Assembly: GCF_902459745.1 (NCBI RefSeq)
Contig: NZ_CABPSJ010000010.1
Coordinates: 16,920 to 80,919, forward strand
From: Pandoraea communis
Lineage (GTDB): Bacteria > Pseudomonadota > Gammaproteobacteria > Burkholderiales > Burkholderiaceae
Reading direction: 5' to 3'
DNA: 64,000 nt
Position numbers and translations under genes: made by a program. The notes beneath the pieces were generated by a model. That model did no database searches and had not been told where the DNA came from. It saw nothing but the letters and a program-made list of their open reading frames with translations. Below are positions 6,150 to 31,329 of the stretch, piece after piece; positions within the stretch are counted from its first letter, which is position 1, and the number at the start of each line of letters is the position of its first letter.

Positions 6150-7661
6150 ATGGAAACGATACCGAAAATCATTTCGGCGCCTGCTGCTGCGCCGGCCACA
6201 AGCAATACCGCACGTCCCGTGCCGCCGCGCCCGCGCCAATACGATGCGCGGCTTGCGCGCTGGATGGTCACGCCGCTCGTCGACACCCGAGTCAGCCCGA
6301 ACCACCTCACAACGCTTCGCCTGATCGTCGGGCTGGCCTGCACCTGGGCATTTGCGCAAGGTAGCTACGCGATGGCCAATCTGGGCGCCGTGTTGCTCGT
6401 GCTGTCGAACTTCATCGACCACACGGACGGCGAACTGGCGCGCATCAGCGGTAAGACGAGCCGCATTGGCCACCTGTATGACCTGGCCTCGGACGCCTTG
6501 GTCACCGTGCTGCTGTTCGGCGGTATCGGCATGGGCGTGGCGGCTGTCGCCCCGGACCCATACCCGCTGCCCGTGCCGCTCTCGGCATCCGCGCTCGGCT
6601 GGATTGCCGGCATTGCGGTGGCCCTGGTCTTCTTCCTGCGCATGCGCATCGAAGACCGCGTGGGCAAGGCCGGCACGAAGCAGGCATCCGTCGGCGGCTT
6701 CGAGACGGAAGATGTGCTTTATCTGATGCCGCTCGTCACGCTGTTCGACGGCACGCGCGGCTTCCTGATTGCCGCCGCCATCGGCGCGCCGATCTTCGCG
6801 CTGCTCGTGATCGCCGACTACGTGCGCGTCATGCGCCGCGCGCTGCCGGTCGAAGCCGGTGAGTCTGCCGCCACGGCCGAGGCCGCCACCGCCGTCGAGG
6901 CAGCCCAGCCGATGGCGCCTGCGGCGTTCGCGGCAGACGCCGAAATCGAACGTGCACTGGACGCCATCGACTTCGACGCCGCGACCCGCGAGTTCAAGTC
7001 GCAGGACGCATTCATCTATCTCGAGAAGTTCCTGCCGAAAGCGGTCACGGAACAATTGATCGCCGTGGTTCGCTCGGTCACGCCGAACGTCAATCGCAAC
7101 TACCTTCCCGGTCACAAACAGGGCGGCAGCGTGAGCCGTCATACGCTCGACGAGCTTGCCCCGTTCGTGGCCGAGTTGTACCGCTCGCCCGCCCTGATGC
7201 GTTTCCTGGAGCGTCTGGCCGGTGAAAAGCTGTTGCCGTCGCCGCAAGACGACCCGCACGCATATGCGCTGTATTACTACACGCGTCCGGGCGATCACAT
7301 CGGCTGGCACTATGACACGTCCTACTACAAGGGCCGCCGCTACACGCTGCTGCTTGGCGTGGTGGACCAATCGAGCTGCAAGCTCGAATACCGGCTTCAC
7401 ACCCGCAACCCCGGCGTGGCGCAAGTCGAAGGCGCAGTGGCGTATCCACCCGGTGCGCTGGTGTTCTTCGACGGGGACAAACTGCATCACCGGATCACAC
7501 CGCTCGGCGAAAATGAGGAGCGAATCTCGCTCACGTTCGAGTATGTGACCGACCCGCGCATGGGCACATGGCAGCGCTTCATCTCGAACATGAAAGACGC
7601 CATCGCCTACTTCGGTTTCCGCCAAGTGTTTCGTCAGCTATTGGGACGGACGAAACGCTAA
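6150..7661 (+). CDS. CDP-alcohol phosphatidyltransferase fused to a 2OG-Fe(II) oxygenase
   Basis: A two-domain enzyme of about 503 residues. The N-terminal half is a membrane CDP-alcohol phosphatidyltransferase with the full signature DG-x2-AR-x8-G-x3-D-x3-D (D93, G94, A97, R98, G107, D111, D115) and several hydrophobic helices. A low-complexity Ala/Glu linker (about 230-265) leads to a C-terminal 2-oxoglutarate/Fe(II) dioxygenase domain: HYD at 387-389 supplies H and D, HH at 446-447 the second His, and R459 the likely 2OG contact. In this operon the first domain would transfer a CMP-activated phosphonate to a lipid alcohol, and the second could hydroxylate the head group (inference). The start is uncertain: ATG 6129 or 6150 fits, neither with a good ribosome binding site. 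The next gene starts at the base after the stop. Confidence 0.8.
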   Translation: METIPKIISAPAAAPATSNTARPVPPRPRQYDARLARWMVTPLVDTRVSPNHLTTLRLIVGLACTWAFAQGSYAMANLGAVLLVLSNFIDHTDGELARISGKTSRIGHLYDLASDALVTVLLFGGIGMGVAAVAPDPYPLPVPLSASALGWIAGIAVALVFFLRMRIEDRVGKAGTKQASVGGFETEDVLYLMPLVTLFDGTRGFLIAAAIGAPIFALLVIADYVRVMRRALPVEAGESAATAEAATAVEAAQPMAPAAFAADAEIERALDAIDFDAATREFKSQDAFIYLEKFLPKAVTEQLIAVVRSVTPNVNRNYLPGHKQGGSVSRHTLDELAPFVAELYRSPALMRFLERLAGEKLLPSPQDDPHAYALYYYTRPGDHIGWHYDTSYYKGRRYTLLLGVVDQSSCKLEYRLHTRNPGVAQVEGAVAYPPGALVFFDGDKLHHRITPLGENEERISLTFEYVTDPRMGTWQRFISNMKDAIAYFGFRQVFRQLLGRTKR

Positions 7662-8684
7662 ATGAACCGGACTGCCATCGTATCTCTCACCCTAGGTTTC
7701 GCCCTTTTTGTCGCCCTGCTCATTTGGCAGGGCACGGGATCGGTGATGTCTACGCTGGCGGTCGCCGGCTGGGGACTGTTGCCCATCGCCGCCTTCCACC
7801 TCGTGCCGCTGGTGCTCGACGCCGCCGCCATTCAGGTGCTGGTGGCGAAATCCTGTTCGCTGCGCCGCGCCACGCTCACGCGCTGGGTCGGAGAGTCGGT
7901 CAACAGCCTGCTGCCGGCCGGTCAGATCGGCGGGCCGATCGCGATGGTGCGTCAAATGAAGCAACGCGGGTTGGCCGGTCGCGAAGCGGCGGCCGCCATC
8001 ACCGTCAGTACGACGCTACAGGCGGTGGCGCAGATCGTTTTCGCGCTGTTGGGATTGGCCGTCTTCGGGATCAGCGCAACACAAGGCGCCGGTGACAGCC
8101 TGTGGCTGCCGATGCTGCTTGCCACCGCGCTCATCTCCGCCCTGCTATACGCGTTCTACGTTGCGCAACGGCGCGGCATCTTCGGCTGGGCATTCCGTAT
8201 GCTCGCCAGAATGTCGTCCAAGCGCGACTGGTCGTCGCTGCTCGACCGGGCGGACGCCGTCGACGAAATCGTGCAACGCATGTATGGCCAGCGCCGTCAG
8301 GTGCTCGCGAGCTTTTTGCTCAGCCTTGTTGGCTGGATCGTCGGCACAGTGGAGGTCTGGCTGATTCTGCAATTCATCGGCTACCCGGTGAGTTGGATCG
8401 ACGCGATGCTGCTCGAAAGTCTCGGGCAGGCGATTCGCGGCGCTGCTTTCTTCGTGCCGGGTTCGCTCGGCGTGCAGGAAGGCGGTTACCTGCTGCTCGC
8501 CCCGCTCGTGGGCCTGCCGGCCGACGCCGCGCTGGCTCTCTCCCTGGCCAAACGTACGCGCGAGCTGCTGCTCGGCGTGCCGGGCCTCGTCTATCTGCAT
8601 TTCTCCGAACGTGGCTGGCGCCGCCGGCGTGCCTCGCAACAAAGCGTGTCGCTGCCTGCCGCCACGGACTCTGCACCGCTCTAA
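7662..8684 (+). CDS. hpnL: HpnL-type / flippase-like polytopic membrane protein
   Basis: A 340-residue integral membrane protein of the lysylphosphatidylglycerol-synthase-TM / UPF0104 group, with about eight hydrophobic segments. The stretch SWIDAMLLESLGQAIRG followed by FFVPGSLGVQEGGY is characteristic of the HpnL family found in hopanoid clusters. The biochemical role of HpnL is not established; relatives are suspected of lipid flipping. It starts directly after the phosphatidyltransferase stop, so it is co-translated and may move that enzyme's lipid product across the inner membrane (inference). Confidence 0.72.
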   Translation: MNRTAIVSLTLGFALFVALLIWQGTGSVMSTLAVAGWGLLPIAAFHLVPLVLDAAAIQVLVAKSCSLRRATLTRWVGESVNSLLPAGQIGGPIAMVRQMKQRGLAGREAAAAITVSTTLQAVAQIVFALLGLAVFGISATQGAGDSLWLPMLLATALISALLYAFYVAQRRGIFGWAFRMLARMSSKRDWSSLLDRADAVDEIVQRMYGQRRQVLASFLLSLVGWIVGTVEVWLILQFIGYPVSWIDAMLLESLGQAIRGAAFFVPGSLGVQEGGYLLLAPLVGLPADAALALSLAKRTRELLLGVPGLVYLHFSERGWRRRRASQQSVSLPAATDSAPL

Positions 8685-8699
8685 AGAAGGATATTCATC

Positions 8700-9464
8700 A
8701 TGCGGGCCATCATTCTCGCAGCAGGCATGGGCCTGCGTTTGCTACAGCCCGAAGATAAGCAGTCGCCCAAGTGCCTGCTGCCGTTCGACGGCATGTCGCT
8801 ACTCGAGCGCCATCTGCGCATGCTTGCGGCGGCGGGAATCACCGATGTCGTGCTGGCGCTCGGCTTCCATCACGAGCAAGTGAGCGAAGCCCTCGATCGC
8901 CTGAACTGGACACCGCGTCCGCAGATCCGTCTGAACCCGGCGTTCCATCTGGGCAGCGTGCTGACCCTGCACACGGCCGCCGACGCGATGACCGCGGGCG
9001 GCGACGTCCTCGTCATGGACGCGGATGTGCTCTACGACCAACGCATTTTCAACGCCCTGGTGGCGGGTGAGACGGCGAACCGTCTGCTCATCGACCGCGA
9101 TTTCGAAGTCGGTGATGAGCCGGTCAAGCTATGCCTGCGCAACGGCGTACCCGTCGAACTGCGCAAGCAGGTGATGGCAGGTCTCGAATACGACACCGTG
9201 GGCGAATCGGTCGGCTTCTTCCGCTTCAACGAAGCGACGGCGACACGTCTTGCGGAAATCACCCGCGATTACGTTGAATCGGGCCGCGCCAAGATGCCGC
9301 ACGAAGAAGCCGTGCGCGATCTGCTGCTCGAGCGCGGCGCGCAATTCGAAACGGCCGATGTCACGGGCTTCCCGTGGATCGAAATCGACTACCCTGAAGA
9401 TGTAAAGCGCGCCACCGAACAGGTGCTGCCGCAACTCGAACCGCTCACGATGGTGTCAGAATGA
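8700..9464 (+). CDS. Nucleotidyltransferase, candidate CTP:phosphonate cytidylyltransferase
   Basis: A 254-residue stand-alone nucleotidyltransferase. It has the nucleotide motif LAAGMGLRL (residues 6-14) followed by [10 protein letters not shown], a metal-binding DAD in VMDADVLYD, and a second acidic site in [13 protein letters not shown]. An AAGAAGGA ribosome binding site precedes ATG 8700. Nucleotidyltransferases of this type (PntC-like) activate 2-aminoethylphosphonate to CMP-aminoethylphosphonate in phosphonolipid and phosphonoglycan pathways, which fits its position between the phosphatidyltransferase and PEP mutase genes. The last four bases overlap the next start (ATGA). CTP rather than another NTP is inferred from context. 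Confidence 0.78.
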
Positions 9465-11170
9465 ACGCTCCCGACGCATTCACCCCGCCGCCGACCGCCA
9501 CGCGCGCGTCGCAACTGCGCGCCATGCTGCGCAGCAATCAACTCGAATTCCTGATGGAAGCCCACAACGGCCTGTCCGCACGTATCGTGCGTGAAGCGGG
9601 CTTCAAGGGCATCTGGGCATCGGGCCTCGCCATCTCGGCGCAATTCGGTGTGCGCGACAACAACGAAGCCAGTTGGACGCAGGTTGTCGAGAACCTCGAA
9701 TTCATGGCCGACGCCAGCGATCTTCCGATCCTGCTCGACGGCGATACCGGCTACGGCAACTTCAACAACATGCGACGCCTCGTGCGCAAGCTCGAGCAAC
9801 GTGGCGTGGCCGGCGTGTGTATCGAAGACAAGATCTTCCCGAAGACCAACAGCTTCATCGGCGGCGAGCGCCAGCCGCTCGCGGACATCGACGAGTTCTG
9901 CGGCAAGATCAAGGCAGGCAAGGACTCGCAGGCCGACGACGACTTCTCGATCGTGGCGCGCGTCGAAGCGCTGATCGCGGGCTGGGGCATGGAAGAAGCC
10001 CTGCGCCGGGCGGAGGCCTATCGCCAGGCCGGTGCCGACGCCATCCTGATTCACAGCAAACTCAAGCGTGCCGACGAAATCGTGCAATTCGCCCGCGAGT
10101 GGGATAACCGCTGCCCGCTGGTGATCGTGCCGACCAAGTACTACAGCACGCCCACCGACGTGTTCCGCGAAGCCGGTATCAGCGTCGTGATCTGGGCGAA
10201 CCACCTGATTCGCTCCGCCACGTCGGCCATGCAGGCCGTGGCCGCCGAAATCCACCGCAGCGAGACCCTCGTCAACGTCGAAGACCGGATTGCGACCGTC
10301 GATGAGATCTTCCGCCTGCAAGACGCCGACGAATACACCCAAGCGGAAGACCGTTACCTGTCCGCCGCGAACGCACCGCGCTCGGCCATCGTGCTCGCCG
10401 CCAGCCGTGGAAAGAACCTCGAGAGCGTGACGACCGACCGTCCGAAGGTGATGCTGCCCGTTGCCGGCAAGCCCTTGCTGCGCTGGCTGGTCGACGGTTT
10501 CAAGAAGCAGAATGTGAACGACATCACGGTCGTGGGCGGCTATCGCGCCGACGCCATCGAGACCGCCGGCATCACGCTCGCCGTCAACGAACGGTACGCC
10601 GAAACCGGCGAACTCGCCTCACTCGCCCGCGTGGCCAATGCCTTCACGCACGACACGGTGATCTCCTACGGCGACCTGCTGTTCCGCAGCTACATCGTGC
10701 GCGATCTGGTGGAAAGCAACGCCGACTTCACCGTTGTCGTCGACTCGACGGCCGCGACCACGGCCAATGCTGCCAACGCCAGCGTGCGTGACTTCGCGTA
10801 CTGCTCGGCCGGCGACGACCGTGGGCTGTTCGGTCAGCAAGTGCTGCTGGAGAAGATCAGCGGCAACGCCGCAGACGCCGGGCGCGCGCCCAATGGCCGC
10901 TGGATCGGCTTGCTCGGTGTGCGCGGCGACGAAGGCCGTGCGCAACTGCAACGCGTCTTCACGGCATTGCAGGCACGCCCGGACTTCGATCAGCTCGGCA
11001 TGCCCGAACTGATCAACGCCCTCGCGGCGGACGGCGCCAAGATAGAGGTGCAATACGTGCACGGCCACTGGCGTGGTGTGAACGACATGGAGGAATTCCG
11101 CCGCGCGGCAGACTTCGCCCATGGTCAGACGCCGTTTAGCAGCGCCGCCCCGGAGGCCCAAGGTGATTGA
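9461..11170 (+). CDS. aepX: Phosphoenolpyruvate mutase fused to a second nucleotidyltransferase domain
   Basis: A 569-residue bifunctional protein. Residues 1-300 are PEP mutase, which converts phosphoenolpyruvate to phosphonopyruvate, the entry step of almost all phosphonate synthesis. They contain DGDTGYGN (93-100) and the diagnostic [11 protein letters not shown] (from 122), which separates mutases from isocitrate-lyase-like relatives. Residues from 307 form a nucleotidyltransferase domain with LAASRGKNL and [14 protein letters not shown]. Its usual LAAGxG loop reads LAASRG, with Ser in place of the first Gly, so this domain may be altered or specialised. Fused mutase-nucleotidyltransferases are known in phosphonate clusters. 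The start overlaps the preceding gene by four bases. Confidence 0.9.
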
Positions 11171-12350
11171 GGCCGGACAGTTCGTCGAAGCCGCGCGCAA
11201 GCACGGCTTCACCTGGTACACCGGCGTGCCGTGTTCGTTCCTCACGCCGTTCATCAACTACGTGCTGCAAGACCCGACGCTGCACTATCTGTCGGCGGCC
11301 AACGAGGGCGACGCCGTCGCCATCGCGGCCGGTGCCACCCTCGGTGAGGGCAGTGGCGCACGCTCGGTCACGATGATGCAGAACTCGGGCCTCGGCAACG
11401 CCGTGAGTCCGCTGACTTCGCTCACATGGACCTTCCGCCTGCCGCAGTTGCTGATTGTGACGTGGCGTGGCCAGCCGGGCATTACCGATGAGCCGCAACA
11501 CGCACTCATGGGCCCGATCACGCCGGCCATGCTCGATCTGATGGAAGTGCCCTGGGAGCTGTTCCCCACCGAGCCCGAAGCGATTGCGCCGGCGCTGGAG
11601 CGCGCGGTCCGTCACATGGACGAGACCGGACGACCCTATGCACTCGTGATGCAAAAGGGCAGCGTAGCGCCCTACCCGCTGCAACCGGCCGAGCGCCCGG
11701 CGCGTCCGGCCCAGCCCGCGCCGGTGTCGCTCATGAAGGGTGTCGCCCCGTCCGAGATGCCCACGCGTCGCGACGCGCTGGCCCGTGTGATCGCCCACAC
11801 GCCGCTCGAAAACACCGTCGTGCTGGCGTCGACTGGCTTCTGCGGCCGCGAACTGTATGCGCTCGACGACCGCGCCAACCAGTTGTACATGGTTGGCTCG
11901 ATGGGCTGCGTGACGACGCTGGCGCTGGGCCTCGCCTTGGCGCGCCCCGACCTGCGCGTGGTCGCCCTCGACGGTGACGGCGCCGCGCTCATGCGCATGG
12001 GCGCCTTTGCCACGCTGGGTGCGTACGGCCCGTCGAATCTCATCCATCTGCTGCTCGACAACGCATCGCACGACTCCACCGGCGCGCAGGCCACGGTCTC
12101 GCCGACGGTGTCGTTCGCGGGCGTAGCCGCCGCAAGCGGTTATGCGCTCGCGCTCGAAGGCGATACGCTCGACGTCGTCGAGTCATTGTTCGACAGCCAC
12201 ACCGCCAGCCTGAGCGAGGGACCGCGTTTCGCTTGCCTGACGACGCGTCCGGGCACGCCTGACGGGCTGCCACGCCCGAAGATCACGCCGGAAGCGGTAA
12301 AGGCACGCCTGATGGACCATATTGCACGACGCGCACCGGCTTCGGCCTGA
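11163..12350 (+). CDS. aepY: Phosphonopyruvate decarboxylase
   Basis: A thiamine-diphosphate enzyme of 395 residues that decarboxylates phosphonopyruvate to phosphonoacetaldehyde and so pulls the unfavourable mutase reaction forward. The N-terminal pyrimidine-binding half includes [14 protein letters not shown] and [13 protein letters not shown]; the C-terminal half has the diphosphate-binding [10 protein letters not shown] and DNASHDSTG. The start is taken as GTG 11163, because GGAGG lies at 11152-11156 and it gives the natural N-terminus [16 protein letters not shown]; an ATG at 11121 lies inside the preceding gene. The start overlaps the aepX stop by eight bases, indicating translational coupling. 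Confidence 0.9.
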
Positions 12351-12391: not shown

Positions 12392-13465
12392 ATGCTGTTA
12401 CTGAATCCGGGCCCCGTCACCCTGACCGAGCGCGTCCGCAAGAGCCTGCTGCAACCCGATCTGTGCCACCGCGAGCCCGAATTCTTCGATCTGCAGGAAG
12501 AGGCCCGCGCACGTCTGACGGCGGTCTACGGCCTCGATCCGGCTGTGTGGGCCCCCGTGTTGATGACCGGCTCGGGCACCGCAGCCGTCGAGAGCATGAC
12601 CGCAGGTCTCGTGCCGGAAGGCGGGCGCCTGCTGATCGTCGAGAACGGCGTGTATGGCGAGCGCATCTCGCAGATTGCGAAGCAGTACCGTATCGATCAC
12701 GACGTCATTCACTTCGAATGGATGCAGGCACCCGATCTCGCGCAGATCGTCGACCGGCTCGACACGGCGGGAGACCGTCCGTACACGAACGTGGCGATCA
12801 TCCACCACGAGACGACGACAGGCCGCCTGAACGATCTGACCGGCATCGCCGCCGCCTGTCGCGAGCGCGGCATCGATCTGCTGGTCGACGGCGTGAGCAG
12901 CTTCGCCGCCGAAGCCATCGATTTCGACGATTCGGGCATCGTGGCCGTTGCTGCGACCGCGAACAAGTGCTTGCACGGCGTGCCGGGCGTGTCCTTCGTG
13001 ATGGTGCGCAAGGACGCTCTCGCCAAGGCCGCCAGCCGCACGTATTACCTTGACATCGCGCGCCTCGCCAAGCTTCAGGCCGAGCGTAATACGCCGTTCA
13101 CGCCGTCTGTGCACGCCTACTACGCGCTGGTCGAAGCACTGCGCGAACTCGACGACGCCGGTGGCTGGCAACAGCGCCACGCCCATTACGGCGCGCTCGC
13201 CGAGCAAGCGCGCGCCGGTCTGGCCGCGCTGGGCATCGACAGCGTCTTGCCGCCGGGTGAGTCGTCGGTGGTGCTGCGCGCCTACAAGTTGCCCGCGGGT
13301 GTCGACTATGTGCGCCTGCACGACTGGCTCAAGGCCGACGGTTTTGTGATCTACGCAGGGCAAGGCGGTTTGTCCAAGTCGTTGTTCCGTATCTCGACGA
13401 TGGGCAACCTCACGGCCGCCGACATCGACCGCCTGCTGGCTTCCGTCGCCAGACTGGTGAAGTGA
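12392..13465 (+). CDS. phnW: 2-aminoethylphosphonate aminotransferase (phosphonoacetaldehyde amination)
   Basis: A 357-residue class V PLP aminotransferase. It opens [15 protein letters not shown] with [11 protein letters not shown], typical of 2-aminoethylphosphonate:pyruvate aminotransferases, and has [10 protein letters not shown] for phosphate binding, VDGVSSF with the cofactor Asp, and the PLP lysine in ATANKCLHG. It follows the decarboxylase by 41 bases with a GAGGAAG ribosome binding site. In catabolic clusters this enzyme removes nitrogen from aminoethylphosphonate. Here, next to PEP mutase and the decarboxylase, it should run in the biosynthetic direction. No phosphonatase gene (phnX) is nearby. 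Confidence 0.9.
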
Positions 13466-13487: not shown

Positions 13488-15404
13488 ATGAAAGATCTGC
13501 TAGCCAGCATCCAATCCCCATCCGAGTTGCGCGCGCTCTCGCGCGCCGACTTGCGTCGCGTGGCCGATGAATTGCGTGCCTGTGTGCTCGACAGTGTGTC
13601 GCGCACCGGTGGCCACCTCTCGTCGAATCTGGGCACCGTCGAACTGACGATCGCACTGCACTACGTTTTCGACACACCCAACGACCGCATTGTGTGGGAC
13701 GTGGGTCATCAAACCTATCCGCACAAGATTCTCACGGGCCGCCGCGACGCCATGCCGACCCTTCGGCAATGGCAAGGCCTGTCGGGCTTTCCGAAGCGCG
13801 ACGAATCGCCCTACGACACGTTCGGCACGGCGCATTCGAGCACGTCGATTTCGGCAGCGCTCGGCATGGCGCTGGCCAGCAAGGTCAAGGGCGAGAAACG
13901 GCACGCGATTGCCGTGATCGGCGATGGGGCGATGACCGCCGGCGAGGCCTTCGAGGCCCTGAACAATGCCGGCGTCTACGAAGACCTGCCGTTCCTCGTT
14001 GTGCTCAACGACAACGACATGTCGATCTCGCCGCCGGTCGGCGCGCTCAATCAGTACCTCACACGACTCATGTCCGGTCAGTTCTACTCGGCCGGCAAGG
14101 AGAGCGTGCGCAATCTGTTGCGCAATGCCCCCGCCCCCATGCGCGAACTGGCGCACAAGCTCGAAGAACACGCCAAGGCCATCGTCTCGCCCACGGGCAC
14201 GATGTTCGAGGAGTTCGGCTTCAACTACCTCGGCCCTATCGACGGCCACGATCTGGACGCACTCATCCCCGCGCTCGAGAACATCAAGGCGCTCAAGGGG
14301 CCTCAGTTCCTGCATGTCGTGACGCGCAAGGGCCGCGGCTACAAACTCGCCGAAGCCGATCCGGTGCTGTATCACGGCCCGGGCAAGTTCAATCCGAGCG
14401 AAGGGATTCGTCCGGCCGCGCCGGGCACGGTCTCGGCCAAGACCTATACGCAGATCTTCGGCGAATGGCTGTGCGACGCGGCGGCGGCAGACAAGCGTGT
14501 CATCGGCATCACGCCCGCCATGCGCGAAGGCTCCGGGCTTGTGGAATTCGAGAAGCGCTTTCCTGAGCGCTATTACGACGTCGGTATCGCCGAGCAGCAT
14601 GCCGTGACGTTCGCAGGCGGGTTGGCGACCGAGGGGCTCAGGCCCGTGGTGGCGATCTACTCGACGTTCCTGCAACGGGCCTACGATCAGGTGATTCACG
14701 ACGTGGCCCTGCAAAACCTGCCGGTCGTCTTCGCGATCGATCGAGGCGGTCTCGTCGGCGCCGACGGCGCAACGCACGCTGGGGCTTACGACATCGCCTA
14801 CCTGCGCTGCATCCCCAACATGGTGGTCATGGCCCCGGCCGACGAAAACGAATGCCGACAGATGTTGCAGACGGCGCTCGGTATCGACGGCCCCTGCGCC
14901 GTGCGTTACCCGCGCGGCACCGGCCCCGGCGTGAAGACCGAGGCCGGCTTGACGACACTGCCCGTGGGCCGTGCCCAGGTGCGTCGCCGGAGCGCTGCCC
15001 CGGTGGGTCGTCGCGTGGCTATTCTGGCGTTCGGCTCGATGGTGACGCCGAGTGAACAGGTGGCCGCCGAATTCGACGCGAGCGTGGTCAACATGCGCTT
15101 CGTCAAACCGCTCGACGACGCCACGCTGCTCGACATGGCCCGCACGCACGACCTCATCGTCACGATCGAGGAAGGTGTTGTGATGGGGGGTGCCGGCACG
15201 GCGTGTGTCGAAGTCCTCAACGCCAATGGCGTGCTGATTCCGGTGCTGCAACTGGGATTGCCCGACACTTACATCGATCAGGGCACGCCCGCGCAGCAGC
15301 TCGCGTCGGTCGGGCTCGACGCGCAGGGCATTGCGGCGTCGATTCGCCGGGCACTGACCGAGCGTCTCGGCGGCAAGGTCGAGGCGGTGCCGTCGGCCCC
15401 CTAA
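13488..15404 (+). CDS. dxs: 1-deoxy-D-xylulose-5-phosphate synthase
   Basis: A 638-residue thiamine-diphosphate enzyme, full length for DXS. It joins pyruvate and glyceraldehyde 3-phosphate to form DXP, the first step of the MEP isoprenoid pathway. Visible motifs are [15 protein letters not shown], the cofactor-binding [15 protein letters not shown], and [17 protein letters not shown] in the pyrimidine domain. It lies 22 bases after the aminotransferase on the same strand and so appears to belong to the phosphonate operon. That placement suggests dedicated isoprenoid supply for the hopanoid genes that follow, or a shared envelope-lipid programme. Whether a second dxs exists elsewhere cannot be seen here. 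Confidence 0.95.
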
Positions 15405-15734
15405 GCGAAGCGTTTCACCACACTTCCATATCCGTAGCAAAACGGCATCTTTTGATCTGATTTAGAGAGTCAGATCAAAATGCACAGGGCAAACTCCCAA
15501 AGTTCACGCTCCCCGAGAACCGGGTTCGGCAATGCCGATATCCGGGATTTCGGCACCTTTGCCGCCAATTAGCGCCGCTTCTGCAAAACTGCGTAACGCC
15601 GCCGCTCGACACAATCCCATCTCAACGCCTCAGAATCCGGCTACGCGATTTTGCGAGCCCTTCGCCATGTGCAGGATTTTCCCTTCCGTTCGTGTCGGCG
15701 ATCAGCCGCACCGACGTCTTTCCCGTACCGATTC
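15405..15734. other. Intergenic region between dxs and the copper receptor
   Basis: About 330 bases with no supported gene. The main feature is the perfect inverted repeat at 15450-15480. I see no strong ribosome binding site before the receptor start and no T-tract terminator after dxs. Confidence 0.45.
15450..15480. promoter_or_regulatory. Perfect 11-bp inverted repeat
   Basis: TTTTGATCTGA (15450-15460) and TCAGATCAAAA (15470-15480) are exact reverse complements separated by nine bases. The T-rich end is on the 5' side and the A-rich end on the 3' side, opposite to a standard terminator. It lies 46 bases after dxs and 254 bases before the receptor. It could be an operator or an mRNA 3' end structure. 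Confidence 0.4.
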
Positions 15735-17858: not shown

Positions 17859-20492
17859 CTATGGCTTCGAAGGCGCTTCCTTCTCGCGCGGCTTGCCCAT
17901 GAGCACCGGCTGGAAGAACACCGCGCCGATCAGCGTGCACACGAGTGAGAGCGCCAGCAGCTTGCCCATGCTCGACGTGCCCGGATGGTGCGACAGCCAC
18001 AGACTGCCGAAGGCGATGCCCGTCGTTGCGGCAGAGAGCACAATCGCCTGCGTCAGACTCGAGGCCAGCAAGTGGGTCTTCCCCTCTCGCCACGCGATCA
18101 CGTAGTAGATCTTGAACGCCACGCCAACGCCAAGCAGCAACGGCAGCGCGATGATGTTCGCGAAGTTCAGCGGCAAACCGATCAGCACAGTGATTTCGAG
18201 CGTGACGGCGGCCGAGACCAACAGCGGCACCAGCGTACGCAGCACGTCGCCGAAGTTGCGCAGCGCTAGCCACAGCAACACAGTGATCGAAAGCAATGCC
18301 CAGAGGCCTGCCTCGATGAAGGCGCGGATAATCGTGTCGGCCGAGCGCAGGATCGAGATCGGGCCGCCAACGGCATCGGGTGCGCTCGCCAGCACGGCCG
18401 CACTGAACTTGCGCAGCATGGCGTCATCGCTCGGATCGGCGCCCTTCGCCACGTGCGGAGAGATGTTCACGAGCGCGCGTCCCTCGGCCGCGACCCATTG
18501 CGAAACGATGTCCTTGGGCAGCGATTCGCGCGTGACCTCACGCGGTTGCAACGCGTCGCGCAATTGGCCGAGGGCAAGCTTCAACGGCTCGGCGATCGCA
18601 CGATCCGCCCGGTCGCGGGTGGCAGCATCGGCCGCCGCAAGCTTGCGCAAGGCCGTTGCCAGACGCTGCGCTTCCTTGGCCCCTTCGCCGGGGTGATCGA
18701 GCGCGGCGTCTTCCAACTGGCCGGCCGCCGTCTTGAGCGACGACACCCGCGCCGCATCGGCCACCGGGGCCAACGGCGTTTGCGAGAGCACCGGCAGCAG
18801 CGACGCGGCAGCCGTACCGATCTGCGCGAGCTTGGCCGGCTGCTCCGCCGGGATAAACGTCGTGAGCGTGACCACGCGGCCGACCTCGGGCACAGCGCGC
18901 AGCTTCGCGGCCTCGGCATTGGCCGCGTCAAGATTCGGGGCGAGCAGTTGCACGTCGTTCACGCCGGCTTCCGGCGAATTGGCCAGATCCAGCAGCGTCG
19001 CCATCGACTCCGTTTTCGGATCTTTCAAATGCAACGGGTTGAAGTCGAAATGCAGATGCGCCAGCAGTGGCAAGCCCGCGATGACAAGGGCGAGCGTGCC
19101 ATACAGCAACGGCTTGCGGTACTTGTCGGTGAAATCGTCGACCGGACCGAGGCTGCGAAAGCCCGGCGGGCTCGCTTCGCCCTTCGGTTTGAACACGCTG
19201 ATGAGCGCGGGCAGCAACGTAATGGCCGACGGGAATGCCACACACAAAATGCCCACGCCGGCGATCAGCCCCAGCTCGGACACGCCGCGATAGTCTGTCG
19301 GCAGGAACGAGAAGAAGCTCGCCGCCGTGGCCGCCGCGGCGAGCGACAGCGGCATCGCAATCGCCTTGCCTGCCCCCGTGAGCGCGCCACGAAGCACGTC
19401 GTCGGCCGACGACTTGCCGTCGCTGTCCAGACGATGACGCTCGTCGCGGTAGCGCACGCCGAACTGAATCCCGAAGTCCACGCCGATGCCGACGAACAGC
19501 ACGGCAAACGCCACCGAAATCATGTTCAGTGCGCCAACCATCATCAGGCCGAGCGCAAACGTGACGACCAGCCCCGCCAGCAACGTGATGAACACCGCGA
19601 GAATCATCTTGCCCGAGCGTACCGCCAGCCACAGCACCACGAGCACGGCCAGCAGCGTGATGACGGCGTTCGACCCGGCGTCCTCGCGCACGGATGCGAA
19701 TTCCTCATCGGACAGTGGACGCGGGCCCGTCAAACGAACCGTCGCGCCATAGCGCTCGGCGAGCTTCAGGTCGGCAGCCGCCTCGCGAATGCGCGATGCG
19801 GCGTTGGCGCCGGCTTCGAGCGCCGCATAGTCCAGCACGGGCTGCACCTGCACGTAGCTGCGCGCCACGGTATCCGGCACGACGAGGGCCCGCCACGACA
19901 TGCCCGCCGGACGGCCCGCCAGCACCGCCTCGGTCGTATCGGCCGCGCGGCCGAGCAGGCGCGCCATGTCCGGCAGCTTCACCTGCCCGGTGAGCAGCGG
20001 CGTCTGCAACGTGACCGACAGGAGATTCGACAGGCCCGTGAGGCTGGGATCTTGTGCAAGACGGTTGAGCAGCGGCTTCGCGTCTTCGAGCTTGCCGGTG
20101 AGTGTTTTCACGTCGTCGAGCGACGCGAAGAGCAGCGCGTTGCGCGCAAAGAACTCGCCCGATCCCGGGCGGCTCACCGAGCGGAACACGTCCGTCTCGG
20201 TCGACAGCTTCTCGGCCAGTTCGGCGGCAGCCCGGTCGGCGAACTCCACGGCCGGGGCCTGCACCACGGCCAGCGTGATGTCGGCCTTCTGCGGGAAAGC
20301 GCGGTCGATTTCACGCCCGCGCTCGGCGGCGGGCGTGTTCGAATCGATCAGGCTCGAGATATCGGTGTTGATCGCGAAGTGCTTGGCGACGTAGACAGAA
20401 CTCGCGATAACGAGAAGCAGCGAAGCGAAGATGACTGGGTACGCGTGCTTCGCCGAAAAACGGACGATGCGCACGACGAGCGAAGTCAGCAT
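17859..20492 (-). CDS. hpnN: Hopanoid RND transporter
   Basis: An 877-residue RND-superfamily inner-membrane transporter. It has two related halves, each with a first transmembrane helix, a large periplasmic loop and a five-helix bundle. The first bundle includes [20 protein letters not shown] and [19 protein letters not shown]; the second includes [18 protein letters not shown] and [19 protein letters not shown]. HpnN moves hopanoids to the outer membrane in Rhodopseudomonas and Burkholderia. The length is normal for the family. It is divergent from hpnM across a 236-base gap that presumably holds both promoters. Confidence 0.93.
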
Positions 20493-20728: not shown

Positions 20729-21376
20729 ATGAACAAATTTCTGGTGACGGCAACCGCCGCCGTCGCATTGAGCAGCATCTGTGGCGTCTCAGGTGCCTGG
20801 GCACAGGCAAGCAGCGCGAATCCGAACGATCTGGTGAAGACGGCAGTCGAGACGGTCGTCAAGAATGCCAAGGCCGACCCGGCCGCCCGCGACGGCGATG
20901 TCGCCGCAACCGCACGTGTTGTCGCCCGCGACTTTCTGCCCTACACCGATTTCCACCGCACCACGCGCTATGCCGTGGGCGCAAAAGCATTCGATGCCGC
21001 CACACCGGCCCAGCAGCAACAGGTCTTCGAGCAGTTTCAGCAGTTGCTCGTGAACACCTTTGCGCTGCAACTCTCGCAAGTACGCGGCACGCAGATCTCA
21101 TTCAAGTTTGCCCCGGCCAAACTCACCGCGAACAGCACCGATGTGGTGGTGGGCGCCACGGTCAGCGGGACTGGCGACAATCTTTCGGTCGCCTATCGTC
21201 TGGCCAAGACCGACAAAGGCTGGAAGATTTATGACATCAACATGATGGGCGAGAACGTGGCCGACGCATGGCTCATCCAGTTGTATCAGCCGCAGTTCAA
21301 GGCACGTATCGCTCAAGGCGGCATTGACGGACTGGTCACCTATCTGCGCGAGAAGAACGATCGTTTCGCCAAATAA
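20729..21376 (+). CDS. hpnM: HpnM / MlaC-like periplasmic lipid-binding protein
   Basis: A 215-residue periplasmic protein of the Ttg2D/MlaC (toluene-tolerance) family. A signal peptide ends at about GAWAQ (residues 22-26). The body carries the family pattern RDFLPYTDFHRTTRYAVG, QQQQVFEQFQQLLVNTFA and GWKIYDINMMGENVADAW. Members shuttle lipids between the two membranes; those in hopanoid loci are called HpnM and are thought to work with HpnN. It stands divergent from hpnN. No Mla permease or ATPase is adjacent, which supports HpnM over a phospholipid Mla system. Confidence 0.87.
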   Translation: MNKFLVTATAAVALSSICGVSGAWAQASSANPNDLVKTAVETVVKNAKADPAARDGDVAATARVVARDFLPYTDFHRTTRYAVGAKAFDAATPAQQQQVFEQFQQLLVNTFALQLSQVRGTQISFKFAPAKLTANSTDVVVGATVSGTGDNLSVAYRLAKTDKGWKIYDINMMGENVADAWLIQLYQPQFKARIAQGGIDGLVTYLREKNDRFAK

Positions 21377-22718: not shown

Positions 22719-23840
22719 TTGGCCATCCCCTTCCTGCAACAGGCGTATGTTGGCGCCTACCTGATGAAGCAACGCTTCAAGGGCAACAAGCGCTACCCGC
22801 TGGTGCTGATGCTCGAACCGCTGTTCCGCTGCAACCTCGCCTGCTCGGGCTGCGGCAAGATCGACTATCCGGATCCCATCCTGAATCAGCGTGTGTCGCT
22901 CAAGGACTCGCTCGACGCCGTGGACGAGTGCGGCGCACCGGTGGTCTCGATCGCCGGCGGCGAGCCGCTGCTGCACAAGGAAATGCCGCAGATCGTCAAG
23001 GGCATCATCGAGCGCAAGAAGTTCGTCTATCTGTGCACGAACGCCCTGTTGCTCGAAAAGAAGATCGACGACTACGAGCCGAGCCCGTTCTTCGTCTGGT
23101 CGATTCACCTCGACGGCGACCGTGAAATGCACGACGCCGCAGTGTCGCAGGAAGGCGTGTACGACCGCGCCGTGTCGGCCATCAAGCTGGCCAAGTCGCG
23201 TGGCTTCCGCGTGAACATCAACTGCACGCTGTTCAACAATGCCGACCCGGAGAAGGTCGCCAAGTTCTTCGATTCGACGAAGGACCTGGGCCTCGACGGC
23301 ATCACCGTCTCGCCGGGCTATGCCTACGAACGCGCGCCGGATCAGCAGCACTTCCTGAACCGCTCGAAGACCAAGCAACTGTTCCGCGACATTCTCAAGC
23401 GCGGCAACGGCGGCAAGGACTGGACGTTCAGCCAGTCGAGCCTGTTCCTGGACTTCCTCGCCGGCAACCGCTCGTACCACTGCACGCCGTGGGGCAACCC
23501 GACGCGTACCGTGTTCGGCTGGCAGCGTCCGTGCTACCTGCTTGGCGAAGGTTATGCCAAGACGTACACCGAACTGATGAACACCACCGACTGGGACAAG
23601 TACGGTGTGGGCAACTACGAGAAGTGCGCCGACTGCATGGTGCACAGCGGTTTCGAAGCCACGGCCGTGAACGAGACGCTGACGCGTCCGCTGCGCGCGC
23701 TGGGTGTGGCGCTCAAGGGCGTGCGTACCGATGGCCCGATGGCCGAAGACGTCTCGTTCGCCAAGCAGCGTCCGGCCGAGTACGTGTTCTCGAAGCACGT
23801 CGAGATCAAGCTCGACGAACTGCGCCGGGCCAAGGCGTAA
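22719..23840 (+). CDS. hpnH: Adenosylhopane synthase, radical SAM protein
   Basis: A 373-residue radical SAM enzyme that joins a 5'-deoxyadenosyl group to diploptene to form adenosylhopane, the start of extended (C35) hopanoids. The cluster motif C-x3-C-x2-C is seen in CNLACSGCG (about residue 39), followed by IAGGEPLLHKEM. C-terminal cysteines occur in CTPWGNPTR, RPCYLLGEGY and CADCMVHSGFE. The start is TTG 22719: AGGAG lies at 22708-22712 and the resulting AIPFLQQAYVGAYLMKQRF matches the family N-terminus. hpnA follows at the base after the stop. Confidence 0.95.
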   Translation: MAIPFLQQAYVGAYLMKQRFKGNKRYPLVLMLEPLFRCNLACSGCGKIDYPDPILNQRVSLKDSLDAVDECGAPVVSIAGGEPLLHKEMPQIVKGIIERKKFVYLCTNALLLEKKIDDYEPSPFFVWSIHLDGDREMHDAAVSQEGVYDRAVSAIKLAKSRGFRVNINCTLFNNADPEKVAKFFDSTKDLGLDGITVSPGYAYERAPDQQHFLNRSKTKQLFRDILKRGNGGKDWTFSQSSLFLDFLAGNRSYHCTPWGNPTRTVFGWQRPCYLLGEGYAKTYTELMNTTDWDKYGVGNYEKCADCMVHSGFEATAVNETLTRPLRALGVALKGVRTDGPMAEDVSFAKQRPAEYVFSKHVEIKLDELRRAKA

Positions 23841-24836
23841 ATGCGCTCGCGTGTGCTGGTCACCGGAGCCTCCGGGTTCGTCGGTTCTGCGGTGGCACGC
23901 ACGGCGCTCGCGCGCGGTCACGAGGTTCGCCTGCTGGTGCGTGGCACCAGCCCGCGCGCGAACCTCGCCGACCTGCCCGTGGAAGTCGTGGAAGGCGACA
24001 TGCGCGATGCGGCATCGATGCAACGCGCGCTCACCGGGATGGATGCCCTGCTCCACGTCGCCGCCGACTACCGCCTCTGGGCGAAAGATCCGAACGACAT
24101 CATGCGGGCCAACATCGTCGGCACGCGCACGGTCATGGAAGCCGCGCTGCGTGCAGGCGTCGAGCGGGTGGTATATACCAGCAGCGTTGCCACGCTGCGT
24201 GTGCACGACGCCACCGGCCCCGTCGATGAAACCTCCCCGAACGACGAAGCCACGACCATCGGCGTGTACAAGCGCAGCAAGGTCGCGGCCGAACGTCTGG
24301 TCGAACGGATGATCGCGAACGACGGTCTGCCCGCCGTGATCGTCAATCCGTCCACGCCCATCGGGCCGCGCGACATCAAGCCCACACCGACCGGGCGCAT
24401 CATCGTCGAAGCCGCGCAAGGCAAGATCCCCGCATTCGTCGATACCGGCCTGAATCTCGTGCACGTCGACGATTGCGCCGAAGGCCATCTGCTGGCCCTC
24501 GAACGCGGCCGCATCGGTGAGCGCTACATTCTTGGCGGCGACGACGTCCTGCTGCGCGACATGCTCGCGACCATTGCAGGCCTGGTCGGCCGCAAGGCCC
24601 CGACGATCGCCCTGCCGCGCTGGCCGCTTTATCCGCTCGCGATGGCAGCGCAAGGCGTCGCGCGCTTCACGGGCAAAGAGCCGTTCGTTACCGTTGATGG
24701 CCTGAAGATGTCGCGCTATCACATGTTCTTCTCGTCCGAGAAGGCGAAGCGCGACCTCGGCTACACCGCCCGCCCCCACCCCGAAGGCCTGCGCGACGCG
24801 CTCGCCTGGTTTGGTTCTGCCGGATTTTTGTCATGA
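23841..24836 (+). CDS. hpnA: Hopanoid-associated sugar epimerase / NAD-dependent reductase
   Basis: A 331-residue extended SDR of the HpnA family. The cofactor motif GASGFVGSAVA lies near residue 10, the catalytic region has TSSVATLRV and Y-x-x-x-K in GVYKRSKVAAE, and NPSTPIGPRD with LNLVHVDDCAEGHL are family hallmarks. The exact reaction is unproven; the family is regarded as acting on the sugar-derived side chain of hopanoids. It has no gap to hpnH and overlaps hpnB by four bases (ATGA), so it sits in the middle of a co-translated unit. Confidence 0.92.
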   Translation: MRSRVLVTGASGFVGSAVARTALARGHEVRLLVRGTSPRANLADLPVEVVEGDMRDAASMQRALTGMDALLHVAADYRLWAKDPNDIMRANIVGTRTVMEAALRAGVERVVYTSSVATLRVHDATGPVDETSPNDEATTIGVYKRSKVAAERLVERMIANDGLPAVIVNPSTPIGPRDIKPTPTGRIIVEAAQGKIPAFVDTGLNLVHVDDCAEGHLLALERGRIGERYILGGDDVLLRDMLATIAGLVGRKAPTIALPRWPLYPLAMAAQGVARFTGKEPFVTVDGLKMSRYHMFFSSEKAKRDLGYTARPHPEGLRDALAWFGSAGFLS

Positions 24837-26035
24837 CTGTTTTGGCCTGGATTGCCGCGTTGTCGCTGGCCATCTGGATCTATCTGCTGAGTTCTCAGGG
24901 CGGCTTCTGGCGCGCGCGTGAGCGCGACGATCTGGACGAAGACCGTCTGCCTGTGCCCGATGTCTGGCCCGCCGTGGCCGTTGTCATTCCCGCGCGCAAC
25001 GAGGCGGAGTCGATCGGACAGGTAGTCGAATCGCTGTGCCGTCAGGACTATGCAGGACGGCTGCGCATCGTGGTGGTGGACGATCAGAGTCACGACGGCA
25101 CGGCCGACCTCGCCCGCGAAGCCGCCGCACGCGCTGCGGCCGACGGTTTTACGCGACGCGTGGACGTGCTCGGTGGTCAGCCGCTGCCCGGTGGCTGGAC
25201 CGGCAAGATGTGGGCGGTGCGCCAGGGCGTGGCGTTCGCCAGCGATCCCGGCACGAACGACGGCGGCATCGCCCCCGACTACCTGCTGCACACCGACGCG
25301 GACATCGCGCATTCGCCCGAGAACGTGCGCCGGCTGGTCACGCGCGCCACGGGCGACCATCGCGTGCTCGTCTCGCTCATGGCGAAGCTGCGTTGCACGG
25401 CATGGTTCGAGCGCACGCTGATCCCTGCGTTCGTGTTGTTCTTCCAGATGCTGTATCCGTTCGCCTGGGTCAACGATCCGAAAAAGCGCATGGCAGCGGC
25501 GGCCGGCGGATGCATGCTGATCCATCGCGCCTCGCTCGAAGCCGGTGGCGGTATCGAAGCCATTCGCGACGAGATCATCGACGACTGCGCCATGGGTCGC
25601 CTGCTCAAGAAACAAGGCGCGATCTGGCTAGGCCTGACGGAGCGCGCGGTGAGCGTGCGTCCGTACGACAATCTCGGCGAGATTCGCAAGATGGTGTCGC
25701 GCACGGCGTACGCGCAGTTGCAGTACTCGCCGGTGTTGCTGGCGGGCACCATCGTGTCGCTGCTGCTTACGTTCATCGTGCCGCCGGCCATGACGATCTT
25801 CGCCTCGGGCATTGCCCAGTGGCTGGGGCTCTTCGCCTGGATAGCGATGACGCTGTCGTACCTGCCGATGCTGCGCTTCTATCGTCAGCCGTCGAGCTTC
25901 GGGCCGCTGCTGCCGCTCGTCGCTGCGCTGTACACCGTCTTCACGTTCGACTCGGCGCTGCAACACTGGCGCGGTCGTGGCGGCATGTGGAAGGGACGCG
26001 CTCAGGCGCGCGGACAGCAATCGTCGGACGCGTGA
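24833..26035 (+). CDS. hpnB: Hopene-associated glycosyltransferase
   Basis: A 400-residue membrane-anchored family 2 glycosyltransferase. An N-terminal helix precedes the GT-A domain, which contains AVVIPARNEAESIGQVVESL, the nucleotide-sugar site VVVDDQSHDGTAD and a metal motif LHTDADIAHS. The C-terminal third has three or more hydrophobic helices (LLAGTIVSLLLTFIVPPAM and following). HpnB proteins occur only in hopanoid clusters and are thought to add or modify a polar group on the side chain. A perfect-stem terminator follows. Confidence 0.92.
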   Translation: MTVLAWIAALSLAIWIYLLSSQGGFWRARERDDLDEDRLPVPDVWPAVAVVIPARNEAESIGQVVESLCRQDYAGRLRIVVVDDQSHDGTADLAREAAARAAADGFTRRVDVLGGQPLPGGWTGKMWAVRQGVAFASDPGTNDGGIAPDYLLHTDADIAHSPENVRRLVTRATGDHRVLVSLMAKLRCTAWFERTLIPAFVLFFQMLYPFAWVNDPKKRMAAAAGGCMLIHRASLEAGGGIEAIRDEIIDDCAMGRLLKKQGAIWLGLTERAVSVRPYDNLGEIRKMVSRTAYAQLQYSPVLLAGTIVSLLLTFIVPPAMTIFASGIAQWLGLFAWIAMTLSYLPMLRFYRQPSSFGPLLPLVAALYTVFTFDSALQHWRGRGGMWKGRAQARGQQSSDA

Positions 26036-26149: not shown

Positions 26150-26845
26150 TCAGATGCCTGCGGCCACCGCACCGAATCCGTCCCCCAGCTTGAGGGCAAC
26201 GATCTCGCGCCCGTGACGCATGGCCTGCCTGGCGAGGCTCGCGTCTTTGCCGATGCGCAGCAAGGCAGGCAGTTGCAACGGATTAACGGCGAGCGAGCGC
26301 AGCACGCCGAAAATATCGGTAGAGCCGTCGCTGCGAAGTCCGGCGAGCGCCGCCGGGGGAAGCGAACGCTCCGCCGGGTCGATCACCACGCGGGCGGCAA
26401 CGAACGGCAGCCCGTGCGCCTGCGCCACTCGCGCCACGATATGCGACTCCATATCCGCCGCCGCCGCCCCGCTCTCGCGGAACAACTTGGCTTTGTCCCC
26501 GGCGGTCACCACGGGCGCGCTCACACCGGCCAGATCGGCACGTAAGGCGCCTGGCATGGCGCGGCGCAGCGCATCCGCCCAGCCAATCGCCGAGACATAT
26601 TCACGCGCCTGCTGAGGCATATCCAGCACCTTGTGCGCAATGACCCACTGACCGGGCTTCACGCCGGGAATCAGGCCGCCGGCCGTACCGAAGCTCACCA
26701 GGCCGCGCGCACCGCCCTGTGCCATTGCGGCCTCGAGGTCTGCGGCGAGCGTATTGTTCTGCGCGCAGACCACGAGCACGCCGTCACCGCGCGCAATGCG
26801 GGCTTCGAAGGGCATGCCGGTCACAACGATGATGGGCGGTGTCAT
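26150..26845 (-). CDS. hpnG: Hopanoid-associated nucleoside phosphorylase
   Basis: A 231-residue phosphorylase-family protein that releases adenine from adenosylhopane to give (phospho)ribosylhopane. It begins IIVVTGMPFEARIAR, as HpnG proteins do, and has the phosphorylase patterns GLVSFGTAGGL, AADMESHIVARVA (the M-E-S ribose-contacting site) and FVAARVVIDPAE. It is the last gene of the leftward hpnD-hpnE-shc-hpnG unit, 12 bases after shc. Its functional predecessor, hpnH, is on the opposite strand in the neighbouring unit. Confidence 0.92.
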   Translation of the reverse strand: MTPPIIVVTGMPFEARIARGDGVLVVCAQNNTLAADLEAAMAQGGARGLVSFGTAGGLIPGVKPGQWVIAHKVLDMPQQAREYVSAIGWADALRRAMPGALRADLAGVSAPVVTAGDKAKLFRESGAAAADMESHIVARVAQAHGLPFVAARVVIDPAERSLPPAALAGLRSDGSTDIFGVLRSLAVNPLQLPALLRIGKDASLARQAMRHGREIVALKLGDGFGAVAAGI

Positions 26846-29050: not shown

Positions 29051-30304
29051 TCAAGCCGGACGCAGCGTGTCGGCCGCCCGGTTGCCGCTGCGCAGCGCAC
29101 CTTCGATGGTCGCGGGCAGCCCCGTGGCCGTCCAGTCGCCGGCCAGCACGAGATTGCGCCAGCGTGTCTGCGTGCCTGGGCGACGCTTGTCCTGCGCCGG
29201 TGTCGCTGCGAACGTGGCGCGCTTCTCGCGCACCAACTGCCACACCGGCATCGGCGTGGACGGCACCTGACAGGCGCGTGCGACTTCTTCCCAAATGCGA
29301 AGCGCGAGCGATTCCCGCGATTCGTCGAGCAAATGGTCCGCACCGCTGATCGTGACCGACAGTCGGCCGTCGAACGCGAAGATCCAGTCGCTCACACCGT
29401 TCACCACGCCGATCATCGGCGGGCAACCCGGCGGCGGCGGCACCTGAAAGTGCGCGTTGACGATCGCCCGGTATTCATCCGGTGTGGTCAGTTCCGGCAC
29501 CAACGCAGCCGCCACGTTCGGCGGTACGGCGAGCACTACGGCATCGTCGGCCGCCAGCGTTTGCGGTCCGTCGCCAAAATCGATCGATTCGACACGGCTG
29601 CCGTCCGGCGCATAGCCTAACGCGCGCACGCGGTGCTGCATCATCACGCGCGCGCCCTTCGCATCCAGGTAGGCCAGCGCGGGCGTGACGAACGACACGT
29701 CCAGACCGTCGCTAGCAATCAGCGGATGACAAGCCTTGCCGCCGGCCGCGAGCGTCTCGCGAATGACGGCGGCGGCCATCTGCGCCGAGCCTTCCGCCGG
29801 ATCGGCGTTGAGCACAGCGAGAAACAACGGGTGAATCAACCGCTTGTACAGCGTGGGCGGGCAATTCATGGCGTCCGTCATCGTCGCGTCGGGCCCTGCG
29901 CGCAGCAGCGGTGCGAGCGATAGATAGTCAGACCATTTCGTGCCCGGCACGCGAGCACCTTTATCGAAAATCCACCACGGCAGGCGCCCTTCCGACAGAC
30001 GCACTGTCCAGCGCGCATCGCCATCGAGGTCGATGAACGCGAACTCGGCGCGATCGGGGCCGCTCAGCGTGTGCTCGGAACCGATGGTGCGCGTGAATTC
30101 GCGCATCGTCGTATTGCCCGAGAGCACCAGATGATTGCCGTTATCGATCACGGCATTCAACTGCCGGTCGAAATACGAGCGGCAACGTCCGCCCGCCTGC
30201 GGCGCGGCCTCATGCAGCACAACAGGCACACCTCGCGTGGCGAGCCTTACCGCGGCGGCCAGCCCTGCAAGGCCGGCGCCGATGACGTGAACCGTGCCCG
30301 CCAT
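29051..30304 (-). CDS. hpnE: Hydroxysqualene dehydroxylase
   Basis: A 417-residue FAD-dependent oxidoreductase that reduces hydroxysqualene to squalene, completing the HpnCDE route. The N-terminal dinucleotide fold shows VIGAGLAGLAAAVRLA followed by EAAPQAGGRC, and the C-terminus has the FAD motif LVLAGDWTATGLPATIEGAL. Its start overlaps the hpnD stop by one base, so the two are coupled. A 120-base gap separates it from shc downstream. Confidence 0.92.
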   Translation of the reverse strand: MAGTVHVIGAGLAGLAAAVRLATRGVPVVLHEAAPQAGGRCRSYFDRQLNAVIDNGNHLVLSGNTTMREFTRTIGSEHTLSGPDRAEFAFIDLDGDARWTVRLSEGRLPWWIFDKGARVPGTKWSDYLSLAPLLRAGPDATMTDAMNCPPTLYKRLIHPLFLAVLNADPAEGSAQMAAAVIRETLAAGGKACHPLIASDGLDVSFVTPALAYLDAKGARVMMQHRVRALGYAPDGSRVESIDFGDGPQTLAADDAVVLAVPPNVAAALVPELTTPDEYRAIVNAHFQVPPPPGCPPMIGVVNGVSDWIFAFDGRLSVTISGADHLLDESRESLALRIWEEVARACQVPSTPMPVWQLVREKRATFAATPAQDKRRPGTQTRWRNLVLAGDWTATGLPATIEGALRSGNRAADTLRPA

Positions 30305-31152: not shown

Positions 31153-31329
31153 GAGGCTCCTCGTCGTGCAGGGGAACAGGGTGACACCACGGAAAAAACT
31201 CTGGAGATTCTTGCAAGGAGGGAAGTATACCGGGGATTGGCGCGACTTTCCCGCCAGAATTTGCAACGATAGCATAGAATCTTGGGGCACTCAGCGCAGC
31301 CGCGTTGCCCCAATTGCCTCACCAGCCCG

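Follow-up and report, generated by a model that had tools for sequence, protein, structure and literature searches.

The question raised by this locus is what a single protein that joins a lipid head-group transferase to an oxygenase would make, and on which lipid it would act. The protein is encoded in the window, the whole stretch of 64,000 nucleotides of Pandoraea communis DNA that was analysed here. In Pandoraea two neighbouring enzymes are now one protein, whose probable function is to provide a membrane lipid with a hydroxylated phosphonate head group; judging by the surroundings of the gene, a hopanoid is more likely to be this lipid than an ordinary phospholipid. Hopanoids are bacterial sterol-like molecules, which are used as molecular fossils and which shape bacterial membranes. 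If the reading is true, it would add a lipid class, a role for HpnL, a named biological source of hydroxylated 2-aminoethylphosphonate (hydroxy-AEP), and a use for a gene that 243 of 398 Burkholderiaceae genomes carry. According to the available text of PMC12583986, no function has been established for hpnL, and that of PMC8154272 calls information on the natural abundance of hydroxy-AEP limited.

The fusion protein and its operon

The gene at 6150..7661 (+) encodes 503 aa, with a CDP-alcohol phosphatidyltransferase domain, a linker and a HalD/BesD-type 2OG-Fe(II) oxygenase. The N-terminal domain matches PF01066 (43.3 bits against the Pfam cut-off of 22), shows the helical membrane fold of this family, and contains the full CDP-alcohol phosphotransferase motif D-x2-DG-x2-AR-x8-G-x3-D-x3-D at residues 90-115 (6417..6494, +). 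It is followed by an Ala/Glu-rich linker predicted to be disordered (residues 234-259; 6849..6926, +; pLDDT <50) and by the oxygenase domain (6927..7610, +). The H-x-D...H...R residues of the latter are H387 (7308-7310), D389 (7314-7316), H447 (7488-7490) and R458 (7521-7523), all on the forward strand. The original prediction of one open reading frame with the transferase motif, an Ala/Glu linker and this dioxygenase set is confirmed.

The same prediction suggested an oxygenase of the PhnY type. The domain search assigned it instead to the HalD/BesD family (PF23169), with both the Pfam score and the jelly-roll fold of that family; the PhyH family (PF05721) gave no match in the window protein up to E 0.01, and the PhnY-type identity was rejected. 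In the halogenases of the HalD/BesD family, HxG replaces HxD at the halide site. The WHWG of HalD aligns with the WHYD of the window oxygenase. A halogenase was rejected on the presence of HxD, whose D389 is kept in 82 of 82 sequences. Homologues were checked for loss of the Fe ligands, and both HxD and the distal His are invariant in all 82 oxygenase sequences. R316 and K323 are likewise invariant in the 82 and are candidate phosphonate contacts.

The fusion gene heads an operon that continues with HpnL, NTase2, PepM-NTase, Ppd, AEP transaminase and Dxs. HpnL, a flippase-like membrane protein (7662..8684, +; TIGR03476, 351.6 bits, cut-off 195.65), starts at the first base past the stop codon of the fusion. 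The stand-alone nucleotidyltransferase NTase2 (8700..9464, +) has 6pd1, a nucleotidyltransferase/aminotransferase of T. denticola, as its best PDB match over residues 2-246 of 254 (E 4.2e-10), and it is probably a CTP:AEP cytidylyltransferase. PEP mutase (PepM; TIGR02320, 411.6 bits, cut-off 319.55) is fused to a second nucleotidyltransferase domain (9461..11170, +), the best match of which is LicC. The signature of this second domain (residues about 307-330) is the atypical LAASRGKN, in contrast to the usual AAGMGLR of NTase2; the fused domain may lack activity or have a specialised role. Phosphonopyruvate decarboxylase (Ppd; 11121..12350, +; TIGR03297, 442.6 bits, cut-off 312.5) probably has its true start downstream of 11121. 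2-Aminoethylphosphonate (AEP) aminotransferase is found at 12392..13465 (+; TIGR03301, 367.8 bits, cut-off 360.8). With PepM, Ppd and the transaminase all over their curated cut-offs, the phosphonate operon context that had been claimed is supported. Dxs (13488..15404, +) likewise follows the operon in loci of Pararobbsia and Mycetohabitans (L079, L081, L083, L086), and it lies close to the G116 cluster. As a side reading, its place in the operon may tie isoprenoid precursor supply to the hopanoid genes. A TonB-dependent copper receptor (TIGR01778) lies between the phosphonate operon and HpnN, at 15651-17852. The Rfam search of window bases 1-30000 gave nothing above the gathering score.

From gene content, domain families, conserved catalytic residues, synteny and co-occurrence, we infer the donor, the acceptor, the site of hydroxylation and the roles of HpnL and HpnN in the following route. 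PEP would be converted to AEP via PepM, Ppd and the transaminase, and AEP to CMP-AEP by the cytidylyltransferase. A CMP-phosphonate-type donor is proposed because a C-P head group would not arise from CDP-diacylglycerol and an alcohol. The N-terminal membrane domain would use the CMP conjugate as donor of the phosphonyl group and a lipid alcohol as its acceptor, and would release CMP; it is highly likely that this domain is a phosphonate head-group transferase. The C-terminal oxygenase would hydroxylate the AEP moiety, with C1 as the most likely site, either ahead of the transfer or following it. The acceptor would most likely be a hopanoid polyol supplied by the neighbouring HpnH/HpnG genes, such as bacteriohopanetetrol (BHT), and the finished lipid would be flipped by HpnL and exported by HpnN.

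Among 41 relatives searched, the full-length fusion was found in 22 of the 25 genomes of the same genus, the exceptions being G002, G014 and G023; an artefact or chance fusion was rejected on this count. Scanning of genome contigs with the oxygenase alignment gave 448 related places. The best 80 were examined, 16 from Pandoraea and 64 from other genera, nearly all of them named Burkholderiaceae. Within these best 80 of 448, the fusion, which was to be sought in other genomes, is present in 16/16 Pandoraea loci and in 0/64 others, where the halves are neighbouring genes. The order transferase, oxygenase, HpnL is seen in all 80 of these loci, and NTase2 comes next in 79, the contig of L106 ending before it. 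PepM lies within the fetched flank in 49 of the same 80 loci, leaving 31 without it. A Paraburkholderia operon without phosphonate genes, first seen at L036 (G278), was rejected for this genome, as its PepM, Ppd and transaminase are on another contig (L059).

Where the genes are separate, 58 of 64 loci offer an oxygenase start codon that would overlap the transferase stop by 4 bases, and 60 of 64 have the oxygenase in one other frame. These counts suggest that the fusion arose at the level of the genus, between adjacent genes whose translation was coupled beforehand. Separation of the halves in relatives had been named as evidence against the prediction, and formally it is what was found at every non-Pandoraea locus (64/64); yet the separate halves are adjacent and their overlap is mostly possible, and thus the functional link between them is strengthened.

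Hopanoid genes and the lipid acceptor

A hopanoid cluster at 17.9-31.3 kb of the window adjoins the phosphonate operon. It starts with the hopanoid transporter HpnN (17859..20492, -; NF052374, 1249.9 bits) and an open reading frame at 20729..21376 (+) that, by its position, we take to be an HpnM-like periplasmic protein; its homologue lies beside HpnN in L157, L158, L160, L162 and L165. Then come the adenosyl-hopene transferase HpnH (22719..23840, +), HpnA (23841..24836, +), HpnB (24833..26035, +), HpnG (26150..26845, -), squalene-hopene cyclase (SHC; 26858..28930, -), HpnE (29051..30304, -) and HpnD (30304..31290, -). The window therefore has an HpnL family member, SHC and HpnH/HpnG close together, as in a hopanoid biosynthesis cluster. 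The HpnH/HpnG route makes BHT. Elsewhere, the window encodes a 1114-aa autotransporter (40739-44083, -) and a 3314-aa filamentous-haemagglutinin-like protein (54022-63966, -; DUF3739).

In five further genera, the operon lies beside or inside hopanoid genes, in three local arrangements. Pararobbsia (G432, L156/157) and g164 (G459, L158/159) have the gene order of the window, running on into the same hopanoid genes. In g163 (G426), the transaminase adjoins HpnN and HpnM. In G116, which belongs to another family and has the PhnY-like variant described below, the phosphonate genes are followed by HpnL and HpnN, and beyond HpnN by SHC (in two frames), HpnH, HpnA, HpnB and HpnG. In g168 (G431), HpnM and HpnN are directly upstream of the transferase, and SHC is about 265 kb away. 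The operon and SHC are far apart in g170, and in the genomes of g21 and g22 that were looked at, SHC is either distant from the operon or on a different contig. Among the 80 named loci, many of which have short or early-ending flanks, only those of Pandoraea and Pararobbsia showed hopanoid genes besides HpnL within the 10-kb flank. HpnL directly follows head-group enzymes in HpnI-J-K-L (L149, L152, L153, L164), as it does in the phosphonate operon. In the HpnL tree, the sequences from phosphonate operons (18 rows) and those from HpnI/J/K operons (5 rows) formed separate clades (99/97, bootstrap not settled).

Co-occurrence was counted in 398 Burkholderiaceae genomes, and the counts are not independent and are confounded by ancestry. 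The 243 oxygenase-positive genomes (E up to 0.001) include a few broken or weak sequences; HpnJ is present in 217 genomes (E up to 1e-120; 214 over the cut-off) and SHC in 288. SHC is found in 241 of the 243 oxygenase-positive genomes, compared with 47 of the 155 oxygenase-negative ones, and 108 genomes lack both. The two genomes with the oxygenase and without SHC, G552 and G756, are both HpnJ-positive. The 288 SHC genomes comprise 171 with both systems, 70 with the oxygenase only, 42 with HpnJ only and 5 with neither, versus 12.2 with neither expected under independence (p 0.01); the complementarity of the oxygenase and HpnJ over these genomes is weak. For 32 Pandoraea genomes, the corresponding numbers are 27 with the oxygenase only, 3 with HpnJ only, none with both and 2 with neither (G002 and G014), these two being without SHC. 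In G481, a Pandoraea without the oxygenase, the hopanoid cluster is kept, and HpnI, J, K and L are found at another place. SHC-positive genomes of g20 are divided into 17 with the oxygenase only, 27 with HpnJ only, 11 with both and 1 with neither (p 6e-6). On a tree of SHC from 35 chosen genomes, which is blurred by SHC paralogues, the presence of the oxygenase can be explained with only about 6 changes, and well-supported branches force 3 of them.

Three features that the original prediction did not cover, the adjoining hopanoid cluster, HpnL in the operon and the HpnJ complementarity, are circumstantial evidence for a hopanoid acceptor, probably a polyol, which we somewhat favour. The same chemistry could also act on diacylglycerol, giving an AEP or hydroxy-AEP glycerophosphonolipid, and the hopanoid genes would then adjoin because of a shared effect on the outer membrane. 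In this superfamily, CDP-headgroup enzymes usually have diacylglycerol as acceptor, and the CDP-alcohol phosphotransferases of the choline/ethanolamine type use it. Such a product could have been overlooked: hydroxy-AEP has the formula of phosphoethanolamine, and its diacyl lipid is isomeric with phosphatidylethanolamine (PE; for 34:1, both are C39H76NO8P) and therefore easily missed. Moreover, 171 of the 241 SHC-positive oxygenase genomes are also HpnJ-positive, which indicates that the oxygenase system is not simply a replacement, and hydroxylated phosphonolipid head groups have been postulated for Burkholderia, as cited in the available text of PMC8154272 and PMC12723261. However, a diacylglycerol acceptor leaves unpredicted the HpnL gene in the operon, the adjacency of hopanoid genes in six genera, the near-restriction to SHC-positive genomes and the exclusion of HpnJ in Pandoraea, and we regard it as the less likely acceptor, though a serious rival. 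The products of a hopanoid acceptor would have distinctive masses, with calculated [M+H]+ of 670.4806 for hydroxy-AEP-BHT and 654.4857 for AEP-BHT. The +16 Da difference distinguishes the hydroxylated lipid from the AEP lipid, but the diacyl form of the hydroxylated lipid is isomeric with PE.

The oxygenase reaction

The three more distant Burkholderiales operons L040, L041 and L042 have a PhyH-family gene in the oxygenase slot, between NTase2 and the transferase (L040:7808-8608; L042:8621-9382; L041 within 8559-9812). The gene of L041 was assigned by eye. Those of L040 and L042 have the methylphosphonate hydroxylase PhnY as their best NCBIfam match (E 6.6e-59 and 1.4e-56), at 199.5 and 191.9 bits, below the equivalog cut-off of the model (500 bits). 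Since two different 2OG-oxygenase families occupy one slot of the phosphonate operon, the step is argued to be phosphonate oxidation. A Rieske oxygenase and a second CDP-alcohol transferase are encoded beside the phosphonate operon of G105 (L040:9818-10897 and 10894-11796).

In 48 hand-chosen genomes, PepM over the cut-off was found in 40 of 41 oxygenase-positive versus 0 of 7 oxygenase-negative genomes. The lone oxygenase-positive genome without it is G542, whose oxygenase match is weak. G014, an oxygenase-negative Pandoraea outside the 7 and without SHC, has PepM over the cut-off in another kind of cluster (L060). This cluster contains an ATP-grasp protein and an MFS-like open reading frame, and possibly makes a small phosphonate natural product.

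The proposal of a phosphonate head-group transferase joined to an AEP-hydroxylating oxygenase is supported in its first part, and the second part is probable: the PhnY-like gene in the same slot is its best support, and hydroxylation of the AEP moiety is likely. If the target were instead, for instance, a free amino acid, an acyl chain or the side chain of a hopanoid, the head group would be plain AEP. The nearest solved relatives of the oxygenase are HalD, HalB, HalA, BesD and a lysine hydroxylase, several of which were crystallised with lysine or ornithine according to the structure titles. In addition, a distant HxD homologue of 33% identity is encoded in G190 (L043:9328-10038), where no PepM is over the cut-off, so the family is not bound to phosphonates. 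Such a target is nevertheless improbable, as it does not fit with the PhnY-like gene taking the same slot, or with the oxygenase being joined to the presumed phosphonyl transferase, or encoded next to it, in 80/80 of the best 80 of 448 loci. Transfer of the phosphonate to a glycan or lipopolysaccharide, with the membrane domain acting on a lipid-linked intermediate, is very improbable: phosphonoglycans or phosphonolipids are the predicted products of most PepM clusters (PMC6697681, available text), but no LicD or glycosyltransferase family was reported among the scanned operon proteins and the transferase is of the membrane-embedded CDP-alcohol family.

We give a probability of roughly 0.45 to the whole reading, in which (hydroxy)AEP is moved to a hopanoid alcohol by a second head-group system beside HpnIJK. 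Chances are about even that Pandoraea and many other Burkholderiaceae make phosphono-hopanoids, with a (hydroxy)AEP head containing a C-P bond, either in place of the HpnIJK head group or alongside it, and that the steps are channelled in one protein in Pandoraea.

Comparison with known systems

The oxygenase of the window differs from the HalD/BesD family (PF23169) members in its HxD, which is of the hydroxylase and not the halogenase type, and in its linkage to phosphonate genes. The PhnY-type phosphonate hydroxylases belong to a different 2OG family, although the presumed reaction is the same and the oxygenase position is taken by a PhyH-family gene in the three operons above. Compared with AF2299 and other CDP-alcohol phosphotransferases, the Pandoraea protein adds a C-terminal oxygenase, and its substrate presumably differs. 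The HpnIJKL operon likewise consists of head-group genes followed by HpnL in hopanoid producers, but its HpnL falls in a separate clade. The HpnIJK head group is formed by amino-sugar/cyclitol chemistry, where the phosphonate operon uses phosphonate. In B. cenocepacia, hpnIJKL/ompA is described as one cluster in the available text of PMC5472815.

The Pnt (phosphonyl tailoring) pathway of T. denticola and A. rimae, as far as given in the available text of PMC6697681, has in common with the operon PepM, the activation of AEP by a nucleotidyltransferase, and the occurrence of both fused and separate nucleotidyltransferases. Unlike Pnt, the Pandoraea operon has the CDP-alcohol transferase and the oxygenase in one chain, HpnL, and a hopanoid cluster. 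A sphingophosphonolipid with 1-hydroxy-2-aminoethylphosphonate is known from Bdellovibrio stolpii (Watanabe 2001, cited in the available text of PMC8154272); its head group is the one proposed here, but the lipid is a sphingolipid.

In the Burkholderia flavophos paper (PMC12871164), the cluster has another composition, and the words "lipid" and "hopanoid" were not found in its available text. A report of a phosphonate hopanoid head group was not found in the literature searched, outside which Yu 2013, Bartlett 2017 and Li & Horsman 2022 lie. The available texts of PMC8154272 and PMC12723261 credit Yu 2013 with a Burkholderia lipid head group that is a hydroxylated phosphonate. The original prediction was of an undescribed or rarely described lipid; its head group is not without precedent, as it had already been postulated, and the link to hopanoids was not found in the literature searched. 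The phosphonolipid clusters predicted in Burkholderia by Yu 2013, as far as the citing papers describe them, probably represent the same operon family in its separate-gene form, and the cluster-level prediction is not new. What sets the present operon apart from those clusters as known through the citing papers, and is new as far as the literature search shows, is the fusion in Pandoraea, the assignment to the HalD family, the PhnY-like replacement and the association with hopanoid genes.
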